From: Acidobacteriota bacterium
Lineage (GTDB): Bacteria; Actinomycetota; Acidimicrobiia; ATN3
Length of the DNA: 34,161 nt
Direction of reading: 5' to 3'
NCBI GenBank assembly: GCA_003577105.1
Contig: QEUQ01000026.1
Location: forward strand, 1-34,161
In this document: piece after piece, positions 516-10,114 of the stretch
Layout: every line of letters starts with the position of its first letter
Position numbering within the stretch: the first letter of the stretch is position 1
Made by a program: the position numbers and the translations under genes
The notes under the pieces: model-generated
Database searches by the model: none
What the model saw: only the letters and a program-made list of their open reading frames with translations
Told to the model about the DNA's origin: nothing

Positions 516-594
516 GGTGGCCGTAGCTCAGTTTGGTTAGAGCGTCAGGTTGTGGCCCTGAAGGTCGCGGGTTCAAATCCCGTCGGTCACCCCA
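516..594 (+). tRNA. tRNA-His (anticodon GTG), CCA encoded
   Basis: The acceptor strands GTGGCCG (517-523) and CGGTCAC (584-590) pair with one G-U. A G at 516 supplies the G-1 and C591 the discriminator, and this G-1:C73 pair is the hallmark of bacterial tRNA-His. The anticodon stem is TCAGG/CCTGA with loop TTGTGGC, giving GTG. CCA is encoded at 592-594. The 3' end overlaps the stop codon of the converging glycoside hydrolase gene at 587-589. Confidence 0.96.
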
Positions 595-2245
595 CCGGAG
601 TCCGCAGGTCTTGTGAGATTTCCACTCCCGTGCCGCACGCAAGAGCGCCAATCCCATCGCGGCCAGATCCAAGCGCCAATAGGGTTGCAGAGAAGGGCGC
701 TAGCTCGATCGAGAACTCCTGAGCGGCCTCGTATCGCGAGCACCTGACGCCAACAGACTCAGCTTGGGGAGTCGCGCCCAACGTCGTGATCCGGATCGTG
801 CCGTCGACGGGGAAGCCAATTTCAATGTTGGCCACCTGGGGACTCAGCGAGCGATTCACCAGCACCAGATTCTTACCCTCAAGACCCTCAGAACAAAGCG
901 CTGAAAGCACTGGGAAATCAAACTCTTCGCCAATGTAGGAGCGCGACTTCGCCGTCGGAGCACCAACAAGAAATGTCTCTAGCAGTTGCGGGCCAAGATG
1001 CCGGGCCGTCTCGCGGGCCGCAGTCAACGTGGGAGCTGGCCGAGACGGATCACCGTCGAGCCAAAACGAATACCCACCGGGGACTCCTCGCGGAGTTGCC
1101 GAGGCAAAGTAGTTTGCAATTGATATGCCCTGCTCTGCCTGAGCGATGTATGAATCGACCATCAACAGCCCCGTGAGCCAGTTCCTTCCCATGTGAGTTG
1201 GAAAGGCTGAACCGGCCCATTCCGTAATAGCGATTTCCATAGGTTTTGAAGTCGACTCTTGGATCGTCTGCTTCAGAACCTTGAGTTTTTCACCCAAGAG
1301 ATGCGACATGCCCGCCCACATCTCCGGAGCGCCACCGTCTGCGGGTAGCGGATAGTAGTGAATCGTGTAGCCATCGAGGTTTCCCGCGGTATTGGCAATG
1401 ATCGATCTCAGCGCCGCGTCTGGATATGAGTTGAGCTCCCAATTGGTTAGTGGCGCATAGAGCTTTATGGGCGATGGACTTCGCGCGCGCATCTTCGTTG
1501 CGAACTCGTTGACTCGCCGAATGTAGGCATCTGGATCTCTCGAACCGATCGAACCGTCGGGATACGAATAGAAGCCTGCCTCCCAATGGCCGTACTGCTC
1601 ATTCCCGATCTCCCAGACTTCCACTGAGTAGGGCTCGATATGCCCGCGTTGACGCCGAAGACCAACCATTGGATCGTCAGGGTCGGTGCCATTGGAGTAA
1701 GCAACTAAGTCGGCCGCGTCAGCGGCGTCTGCTGTGCCGAAGTTGACGACAACTTGGGGTGATGCTTCCACCTTGTACACATATGCCATGTAGTCGTCGA
1801 TGCTCCACTGACCGCCGCTCAGTGCCTCTTTCCAGTGGTATCCCGTACGAAGCGCACCGCTCGAGTCGATATAGCCGTCGGTCGGTTGATGCCCAAAGCG
1901 CAGATACGGCCTCGGTAACGTAGGCGAACTGACGTCTCGAAAGTAGCTACGGAGCGCCTTGGCCGTCTCGTCTAGGTATCCCGTCTCCCAAGCTATGTCG
2001 TCGTGAGCGGTGCCCACCCATTGCGGCATGAACAGTGCGGTGCTGAAGATCTCCTCGCGCTCGCCTGTGACCTCCGAGTTGCATCTGATCGTGGGTTGAC
2101 CCGCTTCTGCCGGCTGAAGCCGAGGCGCGCCCGGCGGAACTGAAGCGGCGCCCTGCTGGATTTGCCGGCGAGCAAGCACGAGTGCGCCCAGACCGACCAG
2201 GATCGCAACCACTATCACACCGGCCACTGGGATCATCCTCTTCAT
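587..2245 (-). CDS. Membrane-anchored glycoside hydrolase, alpha-L-arabinofuranosidase-like (clan GH-A)
   Basis: The 552-residue protein has one N-terminal hydrophobic segment (about residues 5-25) after MKRM, with no lipobox cysteine. It is probably a signal anchor placing the enzyme outside the membrane. WEIGNEQYG (211-219) matches the acid/base motif of GH51/GH39-like arabinofuranosidases, with Glu216 as proton donor. AITEWAG (339-345) supplies a plausible nucleophile Glu342 after HYYP (296-299). A beta-sandwich-like C-terminal region from about residue 430 is expected of this clan. The ATG at 2245 follows AAGGGG by 9 nt. The exact GH family and substrate are unsettled. The stop codon lies inside the opposite-strand tRNA-His. 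Confidence 0.78.
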   Translation of the reverse strand: MKRMIPVAGVIVVAILVGLGALVLARRQIQQGAASVPPGAPRLQPAEAGQPTIRCNSEVTGEREEIFSTALFMPQWVGTAHDDIAWETGYLDETAKALRSYFRDVSSPTLPRPYLRFGHQPTDGYIDSSGALRTGYHWKEALSGGQWSIDDYMAYVYKVEASPQVVVNFGTADAADAADLVAYSNGTDPDDPMVGLRRQRGHIEPYSVEVWEIGNEQYGHWEAGFYSYPDGSIGSRDPDAYIRRVNEFATKMRARSPSPIKLYAPLTNWELNSYPDAALRSIIANTAGNLDGYTIHYYPLPADGGAPEMWAGMSHLLGEKLKVLKQTIQESTSKPMEIAITEWAGSAFPTHMGRNWLTGLLMVDSYIAQAEQGISIANYFASATPRGVPGGYSFWLDGDPSRPAPTLTAARETARHLGPQLLETFLVGAPTAKSRSYIGEEFDFPVLSALCSEGLEGKNLVLVNRSLSPQVANIEIGFPVDGTIRITTLGATPQAESVGVRCSRYEAAQEFSIELAPFSATLLALGSGRDGIGALACGTGVEISQDLRTPVG

Positions 2246-2304: not shown

Positions 2305-2343
2305 GTGCCCTGCACCGCGCACGGCGAAGCGAAAGGCTGCCCG

Positions 2344-3366
2344 ATGGTGAAGCTCCGTCTTGACCCCGAAGATGAACTCATGCACCCACTCGAGGAAGCT
2401 GAGAACTTCAACGAATCAATGTATTTCAACTTTTACGACCCTTCGACCAAGCTCGGGGGATTCGTCAGACTTGGAAATCGCCCCAACGAGGGCAAGGCAG
2501 AAATGACGACTTGCCTGTTTCTCCCCGATGGTCGCGCGGCATTCATGTTCAATCGTCCCCAAATAGACAACAACGATGCTTTCGACGCAGGCGGCATGCG
2601 CTTTGAGGTCGTCGAGCCCTTCAAGGAGCTGAAGGTCGCCTACAAGGGAGGCGTGCTTCTCCTCGACGATCCGCTCGAGATGGCACATCCCAGAAAGGCA
2701 TTTACGTCGAACCCAATTGCCCAGTGTGAGATTGCGCTCACCTACAAAGGAATTTCACCGATGTTTGGCGGCGAGCCGGTTGCCGACGATGGCTCCCAGC
2801 TTGATCTAGAAGGCCACGAGGACGCATTTGCCAGAGGCCACTATGAGCAACACGTTGCGGCGGTCGGCCAAGTCACCGTTGGCGATGACAGCTGGGATGT
2901 GAGTGGATTCGGCCTTCGTGACCATTCGTGGGGACCACGCTATTGGCAAGCTCCATGGTGGTATCGCTGGCTCACAGCCAACTTCGACGACGACTTCGGC
3001 TTCATGATCTCGATCATCGCCGGACGAGACGGGTCAAAGCGGATTGGTGGCATGTTCTTGGTCGACGGGGAGTATCACAACGTCAACAACGCCGAGATCA
3101 CCACCGATTGGAAGGGCGAGGACTACTTCCACGACCGCATCACGGCCAAGGCGGAGACGGGCTCTGAGACCTATGAGGTGACCGGCGAGGTCATGACGCT
3201 GATTCCACTTCGGAACCGCAGGACCGACGACGAAGGCAATGAACTCATGACGCGCATCGGCGAGGGGATGACCCGATGGACCTGTAACGGCCGCACTGGC
3301 TACGGGCTCTCGGAATACCTCGATCAGGTGATCGACGGGCGCCCAGTGGGACTCGGCGAGGCCTAG
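2344..3366 (+). CDS. CrtC/AttH lipocalin-like protein (DUF7064/DUF7065 type), function unknown
   Basis: The 340-residue protein is soluble, with no signal peptide or membrane helix. The most recognisable element is GLRDHSWGPRYW (190-201), followed by the aromatic run QAPWWYRWL. This pattern occurs in the CrtC (hydroxyneurosporene synthase)/AttH-like beta-barrel family that actinobacteria encode beside APH-type kinases. The early text YFNFYDPSTKLGGFVRLGNR also fits these families. I chose ATG 2344 because GAAAGG lies 7 nt upstream. A GTG at 2305 in the same frame has no ribosome site. It is probably co-transcribed with the next two genes (16-nt gap). Its role, perhaps binding or converting a hydrophobic substrate, is inference. 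Confidence 0.65.
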   Translation: MVKLRLDPEDELMHPLEEAENFNESMYFNFYDPSTKLGGFVRLGNRPNEGKAEMTTCLFLPDGRAAFMFNRPQIDNNDAFDAGGMRFEVVEPFKELKVAYKGGVLLLDDPLEMAHPRKAFTSNPIAQCEIALTYKGISPMFGGEPVADDGSQLDLEGHEDAFARGHYEQHVAAVGQVTVGDDSWDVSGFGLRDHSWGPRYWQAPWWYRWLTANFDDDFGFMISIIAGRDGSKRIGGMFLVDGEYHNVNNAEITTDWKGEDYFHDRITAKAETGSETYEVTGEVMTLIPLRNRRTDDEGNELMTRIGEGMTRWTCNGRTGYGLSEYLDQVIDGRPVGLGEA

Positions 3367-3382: not shown

Positions 3383-4387
3383 ATGAGCCGGCTCTCTCCT
3401 GAAGAAATCACTGCACGCCTCGAAGCGGCGTTTGACCGCCATTTCGGTTTCAAACCGACGATCGCGAATCTGCGTCGCCTCACCGGCGGCGCGTCGAGAG
3501 AGACGTGGTCATTTGATATCGATGCTGACGCCGACTCCGGATTGCCGGGCGGACTGATTTTGAGGCGCGACCCGGGCAAGACTCCCCTTGCGCTCGAGCG
3601 ATCGACCGAGGCCGGGCTCCTCTCGGCGGCCTACGACGCGGGCGTGCCAGTTCCCCAGATTGTCTGCAAGCTTGACGATGACGACGGGCTTGGACCTGCG
3701 TTCATCATGGAGCGGATCGAGGGCGAGACAATCCCGCGCAAGATCCTGCGCGACGCCGAATACGCTGAGGCTCGGCCAAAGATGTCTGCGCAGTGCGGCG
3801 AGATCCTCGCCAAGATACATGCGATCAACTTCGAGGACCTCGGCCTGCCTGCACCGGGCGATGCACATCCCGTTGATGATCAAATCAAGCAGTATCGGCA
3901 GCTCTTGGATGGGTTTGGCGAGCCCCACCCGGCATTTGAGCTAGGTCTGAAGTACCTCGAAGAATCGAAGCCTCCTCTCGCAAGGCTGGCCTTGGTACAC
4001 GGCGACTTCCGGAACGGCAACTTGATAGTTGGACCTGACGGAATCCGCTCAGTACTGGATTGGGAGCTTGCTCACATTGGCGATCCGCTCGAAGACTTCG
4101 GGTGGCTCTGCGTGCGCTCGTGGCGCTTCGGCGAGGACTCCAACGAAGTCGGAGGTTTCGGCCACCTCGAAGACTTGTGTGAAGCATATGAAGCGGCTGG
4201 CGGAGATTCAGTCAGTCCTGAATCTGTCAGATTCTGGGAGATCTTCGGGACGGTGAAGTGGGGAGTGATCTGCATAGTGCAGGCGTTCACGCACCTCAAC
4301 GGCCTGACGCGCTCCGTTGAGCTGGCGACGCTGGGAAGACGAGTGTGTGAGATGGAGTACGACGTCATGAGGCTACTGCCATGGTGA
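3383..4387 (+). CDS. APH-fold phosphotransferase, LvaA/ACAD10-like hydroxyacyl-CoA kinase candidate
   Basis: The 334-residue protein has the aminoglycoside-phosphotransferase kinase fold. ALVHGDFRNGNLIVG (203-217) holds catalytic Asp208 and Asn213, and SVLDWELAHIGDPLEDFGWL (223-242) holds the metal-binding Asp226. LILRRDPG (58-65) is the lysine/arginine strand, and PAFIMERIEG (105-114) is the hinge. Members of this subgroup include Pseudomonas LvaA and the kinase domain of human ACAD10/11, which phosphorylate 4-hydroxyacyl-CoA. The gene overlaps the next by 7 nt (ATGGTGA), implying translational coupling. It is unlikely to be an antibiotic-resistance enzyme. The true substrate is unknown, and no acyl-CoA dehydrogenase lies nearby. 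Confidence 0.85.
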   Translation: MSRLSPEEITARLEAAFDRHFGFKPTIANLRRLTGGASRETWSFDIDADADSGLPGGLILRRDPGKTPLALERSTEAGLLSAAYDAGVPVPQIVCKLDDDDGLGPAFIMERIEGETIPRKILRDAEYAEARPKMSAQCGEILAKIHAINFEDLGLPAPGDAHPVDDQIKQYRQLLDGFGEPHPAFELGLKYLEESKPPLARLALVHGDFRNGNLIVGPDGIRSVLDWELAHIGDPLEDFGWLCVRSWRFGEDSNEVGGFGHLEDLCEAYEAAGGDSVSPESVRFWEIFGTVKWGVICIVQAFTHLNGLTRSVELATLGRRVCEMEYDVMRLLPW

Positions 4388-4752
4388 GCTCACCGGCTGA
4401 CCGGCCAACTGCTACCGAGCTAATCGAGGCGGTGCGGGAATATCTTGAGCGCGACGTAATGCCACTTGAGGGGCGCACAGGATTTCACGCCAGAGTCGCC
4501 CGCAACGCGCTGGGAATGATCCAGCGCGAGCTTGACCTTGGTCCGGGGCTCGAGGCCGAGTGCCGAGACCGGCTTGCCGAACTGTTGGGCGATTCTCGTA
4601 AGGATCTGAGCCTTCGCGAGCTCGAAGGCGAACTCGTCACAGCAATCAGAGCCGGCGACTTCGACGAGCGCCTCAGCGAAGTTGCCGAGTGTGTACGCAA
4701 GGCAGTCGACGCCAAGCTGGCAATCTCGAATCCCGAATACTTCGTGGAGTGA
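4381..4752 (+). CDS. DUF6285-like small protein, probable kinase partner
   Basis: The protein has 123 residues, is charged and helical, and has no membrane segment. RPTATELIEAVREYLERDVM followed by GRTGFHARVARNALGMIQREL is the pattern I associate with DUF6285 proteins encoded directly after APH-type kinases. The ATG overlaps the kinase stop by 7 nt, so equal expression is likely. In Pseudomonas the small protein LvaB is needed for efficient phosphorylation by LvaA, and this protein may act likewise. That analogy is inference from position and size. Its stop at 4752 lies one base from the converging methyltransferase stop. Confidence 0.7.
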   Translation: MVSSPADRPTATELIEAVREYLERDVMPLEGRTGFHARVARNALGMIQRELDLGPGLEAECRDRLAELLGDSRKDLSLRELEGELVTAIRAGDFDERLSEVAECVRKAVDAKLAISNPEYFVE

Positions 4753-4753
4753 T

Positions 4754-5494
4754 CTAGGCAGGCTTTCGGGCTACCACAGCCACCGAGACACCAAAGGGAA
4801 TGTTTCGTCCGGCTCGCATCCACTTCTGTTCGCTTCGAGCAAGCTTGTTGAAGATCGTCGTCCCCGATTCGCCCCGTTCCAGATCGCTCTTGTCACGGCT
4901 CGGGCGCTTGACTCTGTCGAGTACAGCTAGCGCAAAGGCCACGGGATATAGAAACGAATAGACATAGGTCGAGCGAGTTACCTCAAAACCAGCCTGCACG
5001 GCGAGGCTCTGCAATGACGAACGGCGATATCGGCGCACGGCATGAACCACCCGATCGTGCTCCCGTCGCAAGACAGAAAAAGCGGGCTCGATGATCACCG
5101 CTACTCCCCCCGCCTTCAGCACCCGTCGGTACTCGGTCAGCGCCCGCACGGGATCGGGCACGGCCTCGTGCGTGATGATCGTGATCGATTGCAATGCGTC
5201 AAATGAATCGTCGGCAAAGGGCAGTGAGTCAACTGAGGCTTGAGCCAGGATCAGGCCCGGATGATTCTCCGACGCGAACTCGATCGCGTCGGGCATCACG
5301 TCAATACCGAAGACAGTCCCGCGGGGTTGCATCCAGATTCCGTTGCCCCCAGGACCGCAGCCAGCGTCCAGAAACCTGCCGCCGTCGCCGGGGATGAGGT
5401 CACCGGCAAGAATCTCGATCGCCTGACGCATCGCGACGTACCACCAGTGCTGCTCTTCAGCAATGGCGATTCGGCGATATTCCTCTGATTCCAA
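4754..5494 (-). CDS. Class I SAM-dependent methyltransferase
   Basis: The 246-residue protein opens with MESEEYRRIAIAEEQHWWYV. The HWWY element is common in methyltransferases of cell-surface and lipid pathways. SAM motif I is FLDAGCGPGGNG, the acidic residue after strand 2 is GIDVMPDA, and motif post-I is SVDSLPFADDSFDAL. EYRRVLKAGGVAVIIEPAF completes the Methyltransf_11 core. The start is TTG at 5494 with AAGGA about 10 nt upstream. The C-terminal part (YVYSFLYPVAFALAVLDRV) is hydrophobic and may touch the membrane. The substrate cannot be read from the sequence. Confidence 0.88.
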   Translation of the reverse strand: MESEEYRRIAIAEEQHWWYVAMRQAIEILAGDLIPGDGGRFLDAGCGPGGNGIWMQPRGTVFGIDVMPDAIEFASENHPGLILAQASVDSLPFADDSFDALQSITIITHEAVPDPVRALTEYRRVLKAGGVAVIIEPAFSVLRREHDRVVHAVRRYRRSSLQSLAVQAGFEVTRSTYVYSFLYPVAFALAVLDRVKRPSRDKSDLERGESGTTIFNKLARSEQKWMRAGRNIPFGVSVAVVARKPA

Positions 5495-5676: not shown

Positions 5677-5750
5677 GGGCCGCTAGCTCAACTGGCTAGA
5701 GCAACGGACTCTTAATCCGTAGGTTCGGGGTTCGAGTCCCTGGCGGCCCA
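5677..5750 (+). tRNA. tRNA-Lys (anticodon CTT)
   Basis: The acceptor strands GGGCCGC (5677-5683) and GCGGCCC (5743-5749) pair perfectly, with discriminator A at 5750. The anticodon stem is ACGGA/TCCGT with loop CTCTTAA, giving CTT. The T arm contains GGTTCGAGTCC. CCA is not encoded (CTG follows). Confidence 0.97.
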
Positions 5751-5855
5751 CTGACCAGCTGTGCACGCTGCGCGGAGCAGCTCTCTGGCGCCACGCCGAT
5801 AACCGTCATCCGGGCCAGCAAATAGGATTGGCGTCTTACCCGGTGGAGCCAGAGC

Positions 5856-8800
5856 TTGATAAACGCCTGCACAATCATCGCCCGCAATTACATCGCGCAC
5901 GCGAGGGTCCTCGGCGCGTCGCTCGAAGAGCACAACCCAGACTCGATCCTCCACGTTCTCGTCGTCGATGACCCTGACCGCAAGACCCAGGCGCCATCGC
6001 AACAAACACCGGCAAATCTCGAGTTCCTCTACCCTGATGAACTCGAATTGGACCCGGCACGATTCCTCGAGATGGCGGCCACCTACAGCCCCCTTGAACT
6101 CTGCACGGCGCTAAAGCCCTGGCTGCTAGGGCACCTGCTCGCCGAAACCGCCGGTCACGTCATATATCTCGATCCCGACATCAGGGTCTACGCGCCCCTA
6201 GATGAGCTAGCCGAGCTTGCCGAGGCACACGGAGTCGTGCTCACGCCGCACGTCATCGAAGCACTTCCCGATGACGGCAAGCGCCCCACCGAAACCGACA
6301 TCATGGCTGCGGGCATATTCAACTTGGGCTTCATCGGGATCGGGCCCGGGTCAGACGACTTTCTCAAGTGGTGGTCGGACCATCTGTTGCGCGACTGCGT
6401 CGTCGATCCAGCCGGGTCCGTCTTTGTCGATCAGCGCTGGGTCGATATGGCGCCGAGCCTCTTCAATGCCTTCATCTGCCGGGATCCTGCGGTCAACGTC
6501 GCCTATTGGAACCTTCACGAGCGCAACCTCGAAGTAATCGGTGGAAGGGTCCACGCAGCCGGTCACCTGCTCAAGTTCTTCCACTTTTCCGGCTATGACC
6601 CCATCGACTCGCACATCTTGAGCAGGCATCAAGCGGAGCAGCCGCGGATTCTGCTCAGTGAGCACCCGGCACTCGAGGCGCTCTGCGACGACTACGGCCA
6701 CGAGCTCGCCGCCCGTGGCAATCGCTCTGCATCACTCGAGCCCTATGGGTTCTCAGTAACCTCAGCCGGGCTCAGAATTGACCACGCCATGCGGCGCATC
6801 TATCGCGAGGCACTCAAGCGTTCCGATCGCGATCACAGCCAGGCCCCGCCGAACCCGTTTGAAGAGCCCGGGGAGTCCTTCACCAACTGGCTCAACGAGT
6901 CAGCAGGAGGTGGGATGCGCACTGAAATCACAAGGTATCTGCATGGACTCTGGGAGTTGAGAAGTGATCTTCGCCAAGCATTTCCAGATCTCAGCGGCCC
7001 CGATGCCGCCCGATATGTCGAGTGGGCGAGGTCGGCGCAGCGCACAGATGAATCACTTGAGCCGGCACTTATTCCCAGGTACGAAACACCCGCTTCGGTC
7101 CCGGCTCCGATCTGGCCCGAGTTCGCCGAACCAGCCCAGCTCAAAGCTGGCGTCAACGTCGCCGGCTATCTCAACGCGGAATTGGGAATTGGGGCCGTCG
7201 CGCGCCTGGCAGTTGCCGCCCTCGAAGCCGGAGGGGTCGATTGCGCAACTTCTTCGAGGCAGACCCCTACCCACAGGAACTCAGCGCCCTTCGTCGGTCG
7301 CGAGGCTCGATTCGGGGATTTCGATATCAATCTTGTCTGCGTAAACGCAGATCGCTTCACCGAGTTCGCCCACTCGGTTGGCCCCAACTTCTTCGATTCC
7401 AGATACACAGTTGGACTCTGGTGGTGGGAGATCGCCGAGATGCCCTCTGCCTATCGCCAGGCCTTCGACCTCGTCGATGAGATCTGGTGCGGCTCGGATC
7501 ATGTGCTCGATGCAATCGCGAGAGCAACGGACAAACCAGTGCATAAGGTGCTCTTGCCGCTGGCGCTTCTGGGCCAGCCCTCCGATCTGACTGAGCGCAA
7601 GCGCGGGCAAAGTGACGATCCCTTCACATTCCTCTTCTCTTTCGACTTCTACAGCGTCGTCGAGCGCAAGAATCCCAGAGGACTGATCGATGCATACACC
7701 TCGGCGTTCGGGCCAGACGAGCAAACTCGCCTGATAATCAAGACGATCGGAGGCGACCGGCACGTCTCAGACCTCGAATCGCTGAAGCGATACGCCAAAG
7801 GTCGAACCGATATCGAATTTCGAGACGAATACTTGGACTCCGAAGCGAATGCAGCCCTCACAGCCTCGGCGGACTGCTACGTCTCGCTCCACAGAGCCGA
7901 GGGACTCGGACTGACGATGGCCGAGGCAATGCTCGCGGGCGTACCAGTCATCGCCACCGGATACTCAGGCAATCTCGAGTTCACCTCGGCCGAAACTGCA
8001 TGGCTGGTTCCATACACGCTCATCAAGGTCGCGCCCAGATCCGGCCCGTACCCAGCTGGATCCGAATGGGCAGATCCTGACCTCGGCGCCGCCGCGCGCC
8101 TCATGCGCCAGGTCTTCGAATCCCCAGAAGCTGCAAGAGAGCGGGCAGCACTTGCTCGCCGCCGTCTGCTCGAAGACTTCTCGCTCGATCGGGCTGCAAG
8201 AGACTTCACCAGCCGGATCGAATCCATCAGGGGCACGCGCGGCTCAACCGCAGCGAGGCGCGACCGGCTCGACACAACACGGCGCAAACTCGACGGAATG
8301 GCGCGCGCTGAGTCCTATCTCAAGCGCGGACCTGATCTTGAGGTCGATTCTCGATTCGGAGAGCCGGGGCGGCTCGCAAGGCGGGCGGTAATGCGCCTTC
8401 TGCGGTCCTACTCGCTCTATCAGGGCGAGGTTGACCGAGGACTGATCGACGCAATCGCCGAGCTAGGTGAACGCCTGCATCTCAGCGAGGCTCGCGGCGA
8501 CGCTCGCCTAGATGAGATCGCTTCACTGCAAGTCGAGCTCAAGGCGCTGCGCTCCGATCTCTCCGCAGAGACGTCAGCGCTCGACGCGGCCTTGATTCAG
8601 CTCACCGCATCGCTCAATCCGGCAAGCCCGATCGCAGAGGGGGAGGCCTTCGTCGCGAGGGACTCTACAGGCGAGAAGTATCTCGGATATGACGCAACGA
8701 GCCGCCTCCCAACCGCCTTGACCGAGGAGGCGCCGCGCCAGCTCGAGGAAATGCTGCGCGGTTCCGAGTCGGCCAATCGCAAGCGCCTCAGCCGCTACGT

Positions 8801-9335
8801 CGAGCTGCTTGCCGGCTACGCACCGGTACTCGATGCCGGCTGCGGGAGAGGTGAGCTGCTCGCTCTGCTCGAGGAGAACCACGTCGCCGCTGTCGGAGTT
8901 GATGCCGACGCGTCAATGATCCGCGCATCTACAAACAAAGGGGTCAAGTGCGATCAAGGCGATGTCATCACCTACCTCGATGGCATCGCGGATGGGGCAC
9001 TTGGCGCGGTCTTCTCATCTGGCCTGGTCGAGTACCTGAACGCCACCGAGCTTCACGAGCTCTTCTCTCTTGGCTACTCGAGGATCCGCGATGGCGGCAT
9101 TTTCGTTGTGGATACCCCCAATCCGCATTGCCCGGCGGTCATGAATGGATTCTGGTCCGACCGGGCGCGCGTCGGACCGCTCTATCCCGAGGTCGGGATC
9201 GCACTTTGCCGGATTCACGGATTTGCCGAAGCTCGAGTCGATTTTCTTCCCGGCACAGCGTCGCTCGAACGCGATCGCCAGATGGCGCCAAGGTATGTAC
9301 TCACGGCTACGAAGAGCGCGTCTAGTGACCGGTAA
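5856..9335 (+). CDS. Trifunctional glycosyltransferase (GT8-like + GT4) – methyltransferase fusion
   Basis: The protein has 1159 residues and three modules. Residues 1-270 resemble a GT-A glycosyltransferase: IIARNYIAHARVLGASL at the N-terminus and IYLDPDIRVY, with DPD at 106-108 as the metal-binding DxD. Residues from about 430 to 790 are a GT-B (GT4) domain. It starts GVNVAGYLNAELGIGAVAR and carries HRAEGLGLTMAEAMLAGVPV near residue 680, the E-x7-E donor site. A coiled-coil-like stretch (about 885-930) leads to a class I methyltransferase with VLDAGCGRGELLALLEE near 988. The start is TTG 5856 with GGAG 7 nt upstream. It probably builds and methylates a surface glycan. The next gene overlaps it by 11 nt. 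Confidence 0.85.
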   Translation: MINACTIIARNYIAHARVLGASLEEHNPDSILHVLVVDDPDRKTQAPSQQTPANLEFLYPDELELDPARFLEMAATYSPLELCTALKPWLLGHLLAETAGHVIYLDPDIRVYAPLDELAELAEAHGVVLTPHVIEALPDDGKRPTETDIMAAGIFNLGFIGIGPGSDDFLKWWSDHLLRDCVVDPAGSVFVDQRWVDMAPSLFNAFICRDPAVNVAYWNLHERNLEVIGGRVHAAGHLLKFFHFSGYDPIDSHILSRHQAEQPRILLSEHPALEALCDDYGHELAARGNRSASLEPYGFSVTSAGLRIDHAMRRIYREALKRSDRDHSQAPPNPFEEPGESFTNWLNESAGGGMRTEITRYLHGLWELRSDLRQAFPDLSGPDAARYVEWARSAQRTDESLEPALIPRYETPASVPAPIWPEFAEPAQLKAGVNVAGYLNAELGIGAVARLAVAALEAGGVDCATSSRQTPTHRNSAPFVGREARFGDFDINLVCVNADRFTEFAHSVGPNFFDSRYTVGLWWWEIAEMPSAYRQAFDLVDEIWCGSDHVLDAIARATDKPVHKVLLPLALLGQPSDLTERKRGQSDDPFTFLFSFDFYSVVERKNPRGLIDAYTSAFGPDEQTRLIIKTIGGDRHVSDLESLKRYAKGRTDIEFRDEYLDSEANAALTASADCYVSLHRAEGLGLTMAEAMLAGVPVIATGYSGNLEFTSAETAWLVPYTLIKVAPRSGPYPAGSEWADPDLGAAARLMRQVFESPEAARERAALARRRLLEDFSLDRAARDFTSRIESIRGTRGSTAARRDRLDTTRRKLDGMARAESYLKRGPDLEVDSRFGEPGRLARRAVMRLLRSYSLYQGEVDRGLIDAIAELGERLHLSEARGDARLDEIASLQVELKALRSDLSAETSALDAALIQLTASLNPASPIAEGEAFVARDSTGEKYLGYDATSRLPTALTEEAPRQLEEMLRGSESANRKRLSRYVELLAGYAPVLDAGCGRGELLALLEENHVAAVGVDADASMIRASTNKGVKCDQGDVITYLDGIADGALGAVFSSGLVEYLNATELHELFSLGYSRIRDGGIFVVDTPNPHCPAVMNGFWSDRARVGPLYPEVGIALCRIHGFAEARVDFLPGTASLERDRQMAPRYVLTATKSASSDR

Positions 9336-10031: not shown

Positions 10032-10113
10032 GCGAGAGTGGCGGAATTGGCAGACGCGCCGGCCTTAGGAGCCGGTGCCTTCGGGCGTGGGGGTTCGAAT
10101 CCCCCCTCTCGCA
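10032..10113 (+). tRNA. tRNA-Leu (anticodon TAG)
   Basis: The acceptor strands GCGAGAG (10032-10038) and CTCTCGC (10106-10112) pair, with discriminator A10113. The anticodon stem is CCGGC/GCCGG with loop CTTAGGA, giving TAG. A long variable arm (TGCCTTCGGGCGT) marks a class II tRNA. No CCA is encoded. The converging rdgB stop starts at 10115, so only one base separates the two genes. Confidence 0.97.
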
Positions 10114-10114
10114 C

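Follow-up and report, generated by a model that had tools for sequence, protein, structure and literature searches.

A candidate kinase-lyase module in which a relative of the 25-phosphosteroid lyase takes the acyl-CoA dehydrogenase slot beside an LvaA/LvaB-type pair

In the levulinate pathway of Pseudomonas putida (LvaA-LvaB-LvaC), the elimination step is carried out by LvaC, an acyl-CoA dehydrogenase (ACAD). The operon described here probably represents a new combination, in which an LvaA/LvaB-type pair is associated with a relative of the 25-phosphosteroid lyase (25-PSL) in the slot that the ACAD occupies in the known pathway. The protein families, the fold, the conserved unit, the exclusive partner slot and the reliance of the PSL-like gene on the kinase-DUF6285 pair are all read from sequence, and they make it likely that the three genes form an ATP-dependent module for alcohol dehydration; from these elements we infer what both enzymes catalyse, in which order they act and to which class their substrate belongs. 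The trio and its flanks are arranged as follows in the window (the whole stretch of DNA analysed, 34,161 nucleotides):

587-2245, minus strand: divergent gene of 552 aa, upstream flank of the trio (open reading frame)
2305-3366, plus strand: PSL-like protein (DUF7065+DUF7064), proposed phosphate lyase (Pfam, AF2, profile and fold matches to 25-PSL)
3383-4387, plus strand: APH-fold small-molecule kinase of the LvaA/ACAD10/ACAD11 kind, 334 aa (Pfam APH, profile matches, alignment)
4381-4752, plus strand: DUF6285 small all-helical protein, 123 aa, kinase partner in the LvaB slot (Pfam, AF2, kinase fusions in related loci)
4754-5494, minus strand: convergent methyltransferase gene, downstream flank of the trio

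The kinase and DUF6285 reading frames share 7 nt, as the earlier note had described, and both of its family assignments agree with Pfam (APH, E 5.9e-36; DUF6285, E 3e-27). The GTG at 2305 is a mechanical start, and the PSL-like gene probably begins at ATG 2344, giving 340 aa, because its homologues start at about residue 14 and the AF2 model falls below pLDDT 50 nowhere but in residues 1-13. The window contains no acyl-CoA dehydrogenase gene, the LvaC slot being occupied by the PSL-like gene. The claim that the pair stands without its ACAD is thus true of the operon and the window, not of the genome, since about 20 matches to the ACAD family were found on other contigs of the host; these enzymes could still participate. 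Elsewhere in the window, the product of 587-2245 has no Pfam match at E 0.1 and a hydrophobic N-terminus that suggests export, a 1159-aa open reading frame (5856-9335, plus strand) appears by eye to join glycosyltransferase and methyltransferase domains in a single protein, and four tRNA genes are scattered at 384-457, 517-594, 5677-5751 and 10032-10114 (Arg-TCT, His-GTG, Lys-CTT and Leu-TAG).

The catalytic motifs of the kinase, HGDFRNGN and DWE, are intact, and HxDFRxGN and DWE are invariant in the alignment. Searched against the PDB, the kinase profile matched in order 3dxp (3.6e-28), 9o56, ACAD11 (7.3e-24), 3ats (2e-18), which we take to be Rv3168, and 9fsg (2.4e-12), which we guess may be 25-HSK; macrolide kinases were matched with E 1.5e-8. 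By these profile E-values, ACAD11-type kinases are closer relatives of the window kinase than antibiotic kinases or 9fsg are. It can thus be assigned, as judged from these matches, to the LvaA/ACAD10/ACAD11 type, and its preference may be for a hydroxyacyl-CoA-like compound. Kinases of the LvaA/ACAD11 type phosphorylate 4-hydroxyacyl-CoA, the compound on which ACAD10 and ACAD11 act (PMC12440821, PMC11342911). In these two proteins an LvaA-like kinase is joined to an LvaC-like ACAD, and a flavin route via 2,4-dienoyl-CoA has been proposed for them (PMC11342911).

The small protein is the sole DUF6285 member in the host genome. Its AF2 model (pLDDT 92.8) is all helical; no solved structure matched this predicted fold, a single-sequence search of the PDB gave nothing significant, and no mention of DUF6285, DUF7064 or DUF7065 was found in the literature searched. 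A survey of neighbours across genomes, which the earlier note had proposed, showed the kinase adjoining or fused with DUF6285 in all 110 loci around DUF6285 matches (20/20, 38/38 and 52/52), with fusions also seen in Acidimicrobiia. Moreover, 5 of 38 loci (L157, L166 and L168-L170) are complete SDR-ACAD-kinase-small-ligase operons in which DUF6285 is the small protein. The interaction partner of LvaA, LvaB, has a mass of 12 kDa (PMC6692424). Operon position and family make DUF6285 a probable counterpart of LvaB, so that the earlier reading of an LvaA/LvaB-type pair is retained. Two loci show a kinase-DUF6285-kinase order with two different kinases of the family (L116, 8742-11288; L117, 4120-6709). 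A histidine phosphatase gene lies immediately 3' of DUF6285 in Thermus and Azospirillum (L012, 8345-8998, and L013, 8402-9115) and near the PSL-like gene in a Desulfobacteraceae locus (L071, 7200-7907); a similar gene is reported near lvaA in P. citronellolis (PMC6692424).

The upstream partner combines DUF7065 (E 3.5e-17) and DUF7064 (E 2.8e-29). In a single-sequence PDB search 25-PSL alone carried weight (E 0.0014, colinear stretches), and with a 45-sequence profile of the family it was the sole significant match (E 2.6e-6). The AF2 model (pLDDT 90.9) gave 25-PSL as the top Foldseek match over the full length (E 6.9e-15, TM about 0.6), followed by the Diels-Alderases Fsa2, CghA and Phm7, AttH and kievitone hydratase; sequence identity to 25-PSL is about 15%. 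The protein carries the motif G-L-R-D206-H-S-W-G-P-R (numbered from 2305), whose Asp206 is invariant across all 45 aligned sequences. It is aligned with the position changed from Asp to Asn in PDB entry 9g4c of 25-PSL, within the motif GSR(D/N)RSWG, which suggests that the Asp of this RDxSWGxR motif is catalytic. The matched 25-PSL structure contains phosphate and desmosta-1,4-dien-3-one, and the Asp-to-Asn change is in the entry that holds product and phosphate. Fragments of 25-PSL taken from the alignments matched Pfam DUF7065 weakly (E 0.004, below the cut-off), so 25-PSL is not a formal DUF7065 member on that test. The partner had earlier been called CrtC/AttH-like: the AttH part agrees with the fold matches, which also include 25-PSL and kievitone hydratase, and the CrtC part was dropped, no CrtC family being among the Pfam or NCBIfam matches. 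Sequence and model together support naming it a 25-PSL relative rather than a carotenoid hydratase. It also matches the Rv3169 family model, below the cut-off of that model. The host genome has a DUF7065/DUF7064 paralogue on contig 77 (about 69317-70237; loci L002 and L180), which shares 25% identity with the window protein across about 300 residues, has no kinase nearby and gave no match in a PDB search.

A scan with the PSL-like family returned >590 relatives, of which the best 80 loci were retained. Downstream sequence sufficed in 69 loci (window included): the kinase lies directly 3' of the PSL-like gene in 30 of them, and 26 of these 30 also have DUF6285. Being chosen via the PSL-like gene, this set is uninformative on how often the kinase-DUF6285 pair has another partner. 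The trio was found in Parvibaculum/Rhodobiaceae, Gammaproteobacteria, Desulfobacteraceae and Actinomycetota, and an arrangement that recurs in this way across phyla is far beyond chance. Its surroundings vary: in Parvibaculum it is flanked by housekeeping genes including recG and by DUF502, and in some Gammaproteobacteria (L034, L044, L051) it is followed by an acyl-CoA ligase and an SDR. Many copies stand alone amid housekeeping genes. A Pseudonocardia plasmid locus was rejected as an exact trio, its small ORF being unlike DUF6285. One locus with a PSL-like gene and a kinase-DUF6285 pair (L024) is on a contig labelled Bifidobacterium breve; its kinase is almost the same in sequence as one from a genome of the window's own class (G017), and the contig is probably a misassigned MAG.

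Partner counts were made on loci picked through DUF6285 alone. Among 38 loci from 245 genomes of one bacterial order, an ACAD is nearby in 30 and a PSL-like gene in 8, with neither category overlapping and no locus devoid of both (Fisher 2e-8; this and the following p values overstate independence, because the sampled sequences are related). The partner is directly 5' of the kinase in 27 of the 30 ACAD loci and in 7 of the 8 PSL-like loci, in keeping with the earlier suggestion that the third partner stands in place of the ACAD. The 52 loci from 240 alphaproteobacterial genomes of one class comprise 21 with an ACAD, 4 with a PSL-like gene, none with both and 27 with neither; with so many loci lacking both partners, exclusivity is not significant in this sample alone (p 0.14), and it reaches p 1.4e-5 when the two samples are pooled. 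Conversely, 24 of 25 genomes with a PSL-like gene also carry DUF6285 (12/13 in the order, 12/12 in the class), versus 27/232 and 43/228 of those without a PSL-like gene (Fisher 6e-10 and 8e-9). In the window's phylum (246 genomes), the wider DUF7064 family occurs in 14/21 genomes that have DUF6285 versus 14/225 that lack it (p 1.3e-10). A kinase tree (quick method, SH-aLRT support) requires about 10 switches of the partner label, and well-supported branches make at least 6 of them unavoidable; the closest neighbours of the window kinase are Acidimicrobiia kinases with a PSL-like partner, and the SDR-ACAD-kinase-DUF6285-ligase loci group apart. Both partners were found at a few loci: one of Desulfobacteraceae (L065), one of Sulfitobacter (L009) and two Variovorax plasmids, where the PSL-like gene is about 5 kb from the pair. 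These distributions indicate that the PSL-like gene depends on the kinase pair and that the pair can combine with an ACAD instead, as expected if both partners consume its phosphorylated product.

We propose that the kinase and its DUF6285 subunit would transfer phosphate from ATP to an unactivated hydroxyl, unable to leave alone, and that the PSL-like lipocalin-fold protein would bind the phosphate ester and eliminate phosphate with formation of a C=C bond. It would thereby substitute for the LvaC/ACAD elimination step and give an alkene usable by ordinary oxidation enzymes; on balance, a stubborn hydroxyl would be removed at the cost of one ATP. The mechanism of LvaC, ACAD10 and ACAD11 is thought to require flavin and a 4-phosphoacyl-CoA with an acidic alpha-carbon. 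A PSL-type lyase requires neither. The module therefore probably acts on a compound for which such activation is unavailable or unnecessary, e.g. an isoprenoid-like alcohol, tertiary or branched, that may be carried as a CoA ester. The known lyase of this type takes as substrate a tertiary phosphate that is not activated (PMC8449060, PMC11061730, PDB titles), and the relationship with it would favour a tertiary or otherwise unactivated alcohol, that is, a hydroxyl unsuited to the flavin route of the ACADs. Caution is suggested by the about 15% identity to 25-PSL, by the hydratases and Diels-Alderases that share the fold, by the few loci holding both an ACAD and a PSL-like gene, by the 27 of 52 alphaproteobacterial loci with neither and by the predicted nature of the activities, as well as by the kinase, nearer to ACAD11 than to 9fsg and provided with a small subunit that 25-HSK does not have.

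Alternatively, the pathway might be of the LvaABC type with its ACAD encoded elsewhere, the PSL-like protein performing a later step such as hydration or isomerisation of the enoyl product. The about 20 ACAD matches of the host, the kievitone hydratase within the fold and the few loci holding both genes are compatible with this reading, but a later-step enzyme would not replace the ACAD, so the mutual exclusion in the 38 loci, together with no case of both in 52 more, counts against it; since the nearest relative of the PSL-like protein is moreover a phosphate lyase and not a hydratase, we consider it unlikely. That the genes encode a true 25-hydroxysteroid kinase/25-phosphosteroid lyase pair for sterol side-chain degradation would agree with 25-PSL being the best match of the lyase in both sequence and fold. 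This is nevertheless very unlikely, given the rank of the kinase, a 25-HSK without small subunit (PMC8449060), the Parvibaculum trio amid housekeeping genes such as recG, and a level of identity insufficient to transfer substrate specificity. Most improbable is a biosynthetic or tailoring module, in which the pair would phosphorylate and the PSL-like protein cyclise or rearrange an isoprenoid or polyketide: an ACAD fills the same slot in relatives and the gammaproteobacterial trios are followed by an acyl-CoA ligase and an SDR, as in catabolism, against which stand the Diels-Alderases of the same fold and the many solitary copies among housekeeping genes.

We therefore keep the kinase-lyase dehydration module as the preferred reading. 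More tentatively, it may belong to a general, undescribed route, in which two unrelated enzymes, a flavin ACAD and a cofactor-free lipocalin-fold phosphate lyase, were swapped several times beside the kinase pair, opening up a class of alcohols or hydroxy acids without known route. DUF6285, DUF7064 and DUF7065 have no assigned function so far, and a single reaction linking them would provide a testable function for a family with >590 relatives. If the module is real, kinase-plus-lyase dehydration, of which one levulinate operon, the mammalian ACAD10/11 and a single anaerobic sterol pathway are the examples to date, would be a strategy common among bacteria, with lyases that can be exchanged.

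Compared with known systems, the trio shares with LvaABC, ACAD10 and ACAD11 an LvaA-type kinase with a small partner and the proposed passage from phosphorylation to hydroxyl elimination; an acyl-CoA ligase and an SDR nearby, as in LvaABC, are found in some trio loci only. It differs from LvaABC in that the ACAD slot is filled by a PSL-like protein without flavin domain and that the window operon includes neither ligase nor SDR. AttH NE1406, kievitone hydratase and Fsa2/CghA/Phm7 have the same fold as the PSL-like protein, with scores weaker than 25-PSL, catalyse different reactions and, to our knowledge, have no kinase partner. Rv3168/Rv3169 of Mycobacterium tuberculosis match the kinase and the PSL-like protein with E-values weaker than those of ACAD11 and 25-PSL. 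The 25-HSK/25-PSL system of Sterolibacterium denitrificans (25-PSL: PDB 9fzn, 9g2i, 9g4c) likewise associates an APH-fold kinase with a lipocalin-fold lyase-type protein, and the RDxSWGxR motif is common to 25-PSL and the PSL-like protein, as is its Asp, replaced by Asn in 9g4c. There, the kinase feeding 25-PSL is a monomer and no lyase candidate was seen near its gene (PMC8449060), whereas the window kinase is of the LvaA/ACAD11 branch, has a DUF6285 partner and forms one operon with the other two genes of the trio.
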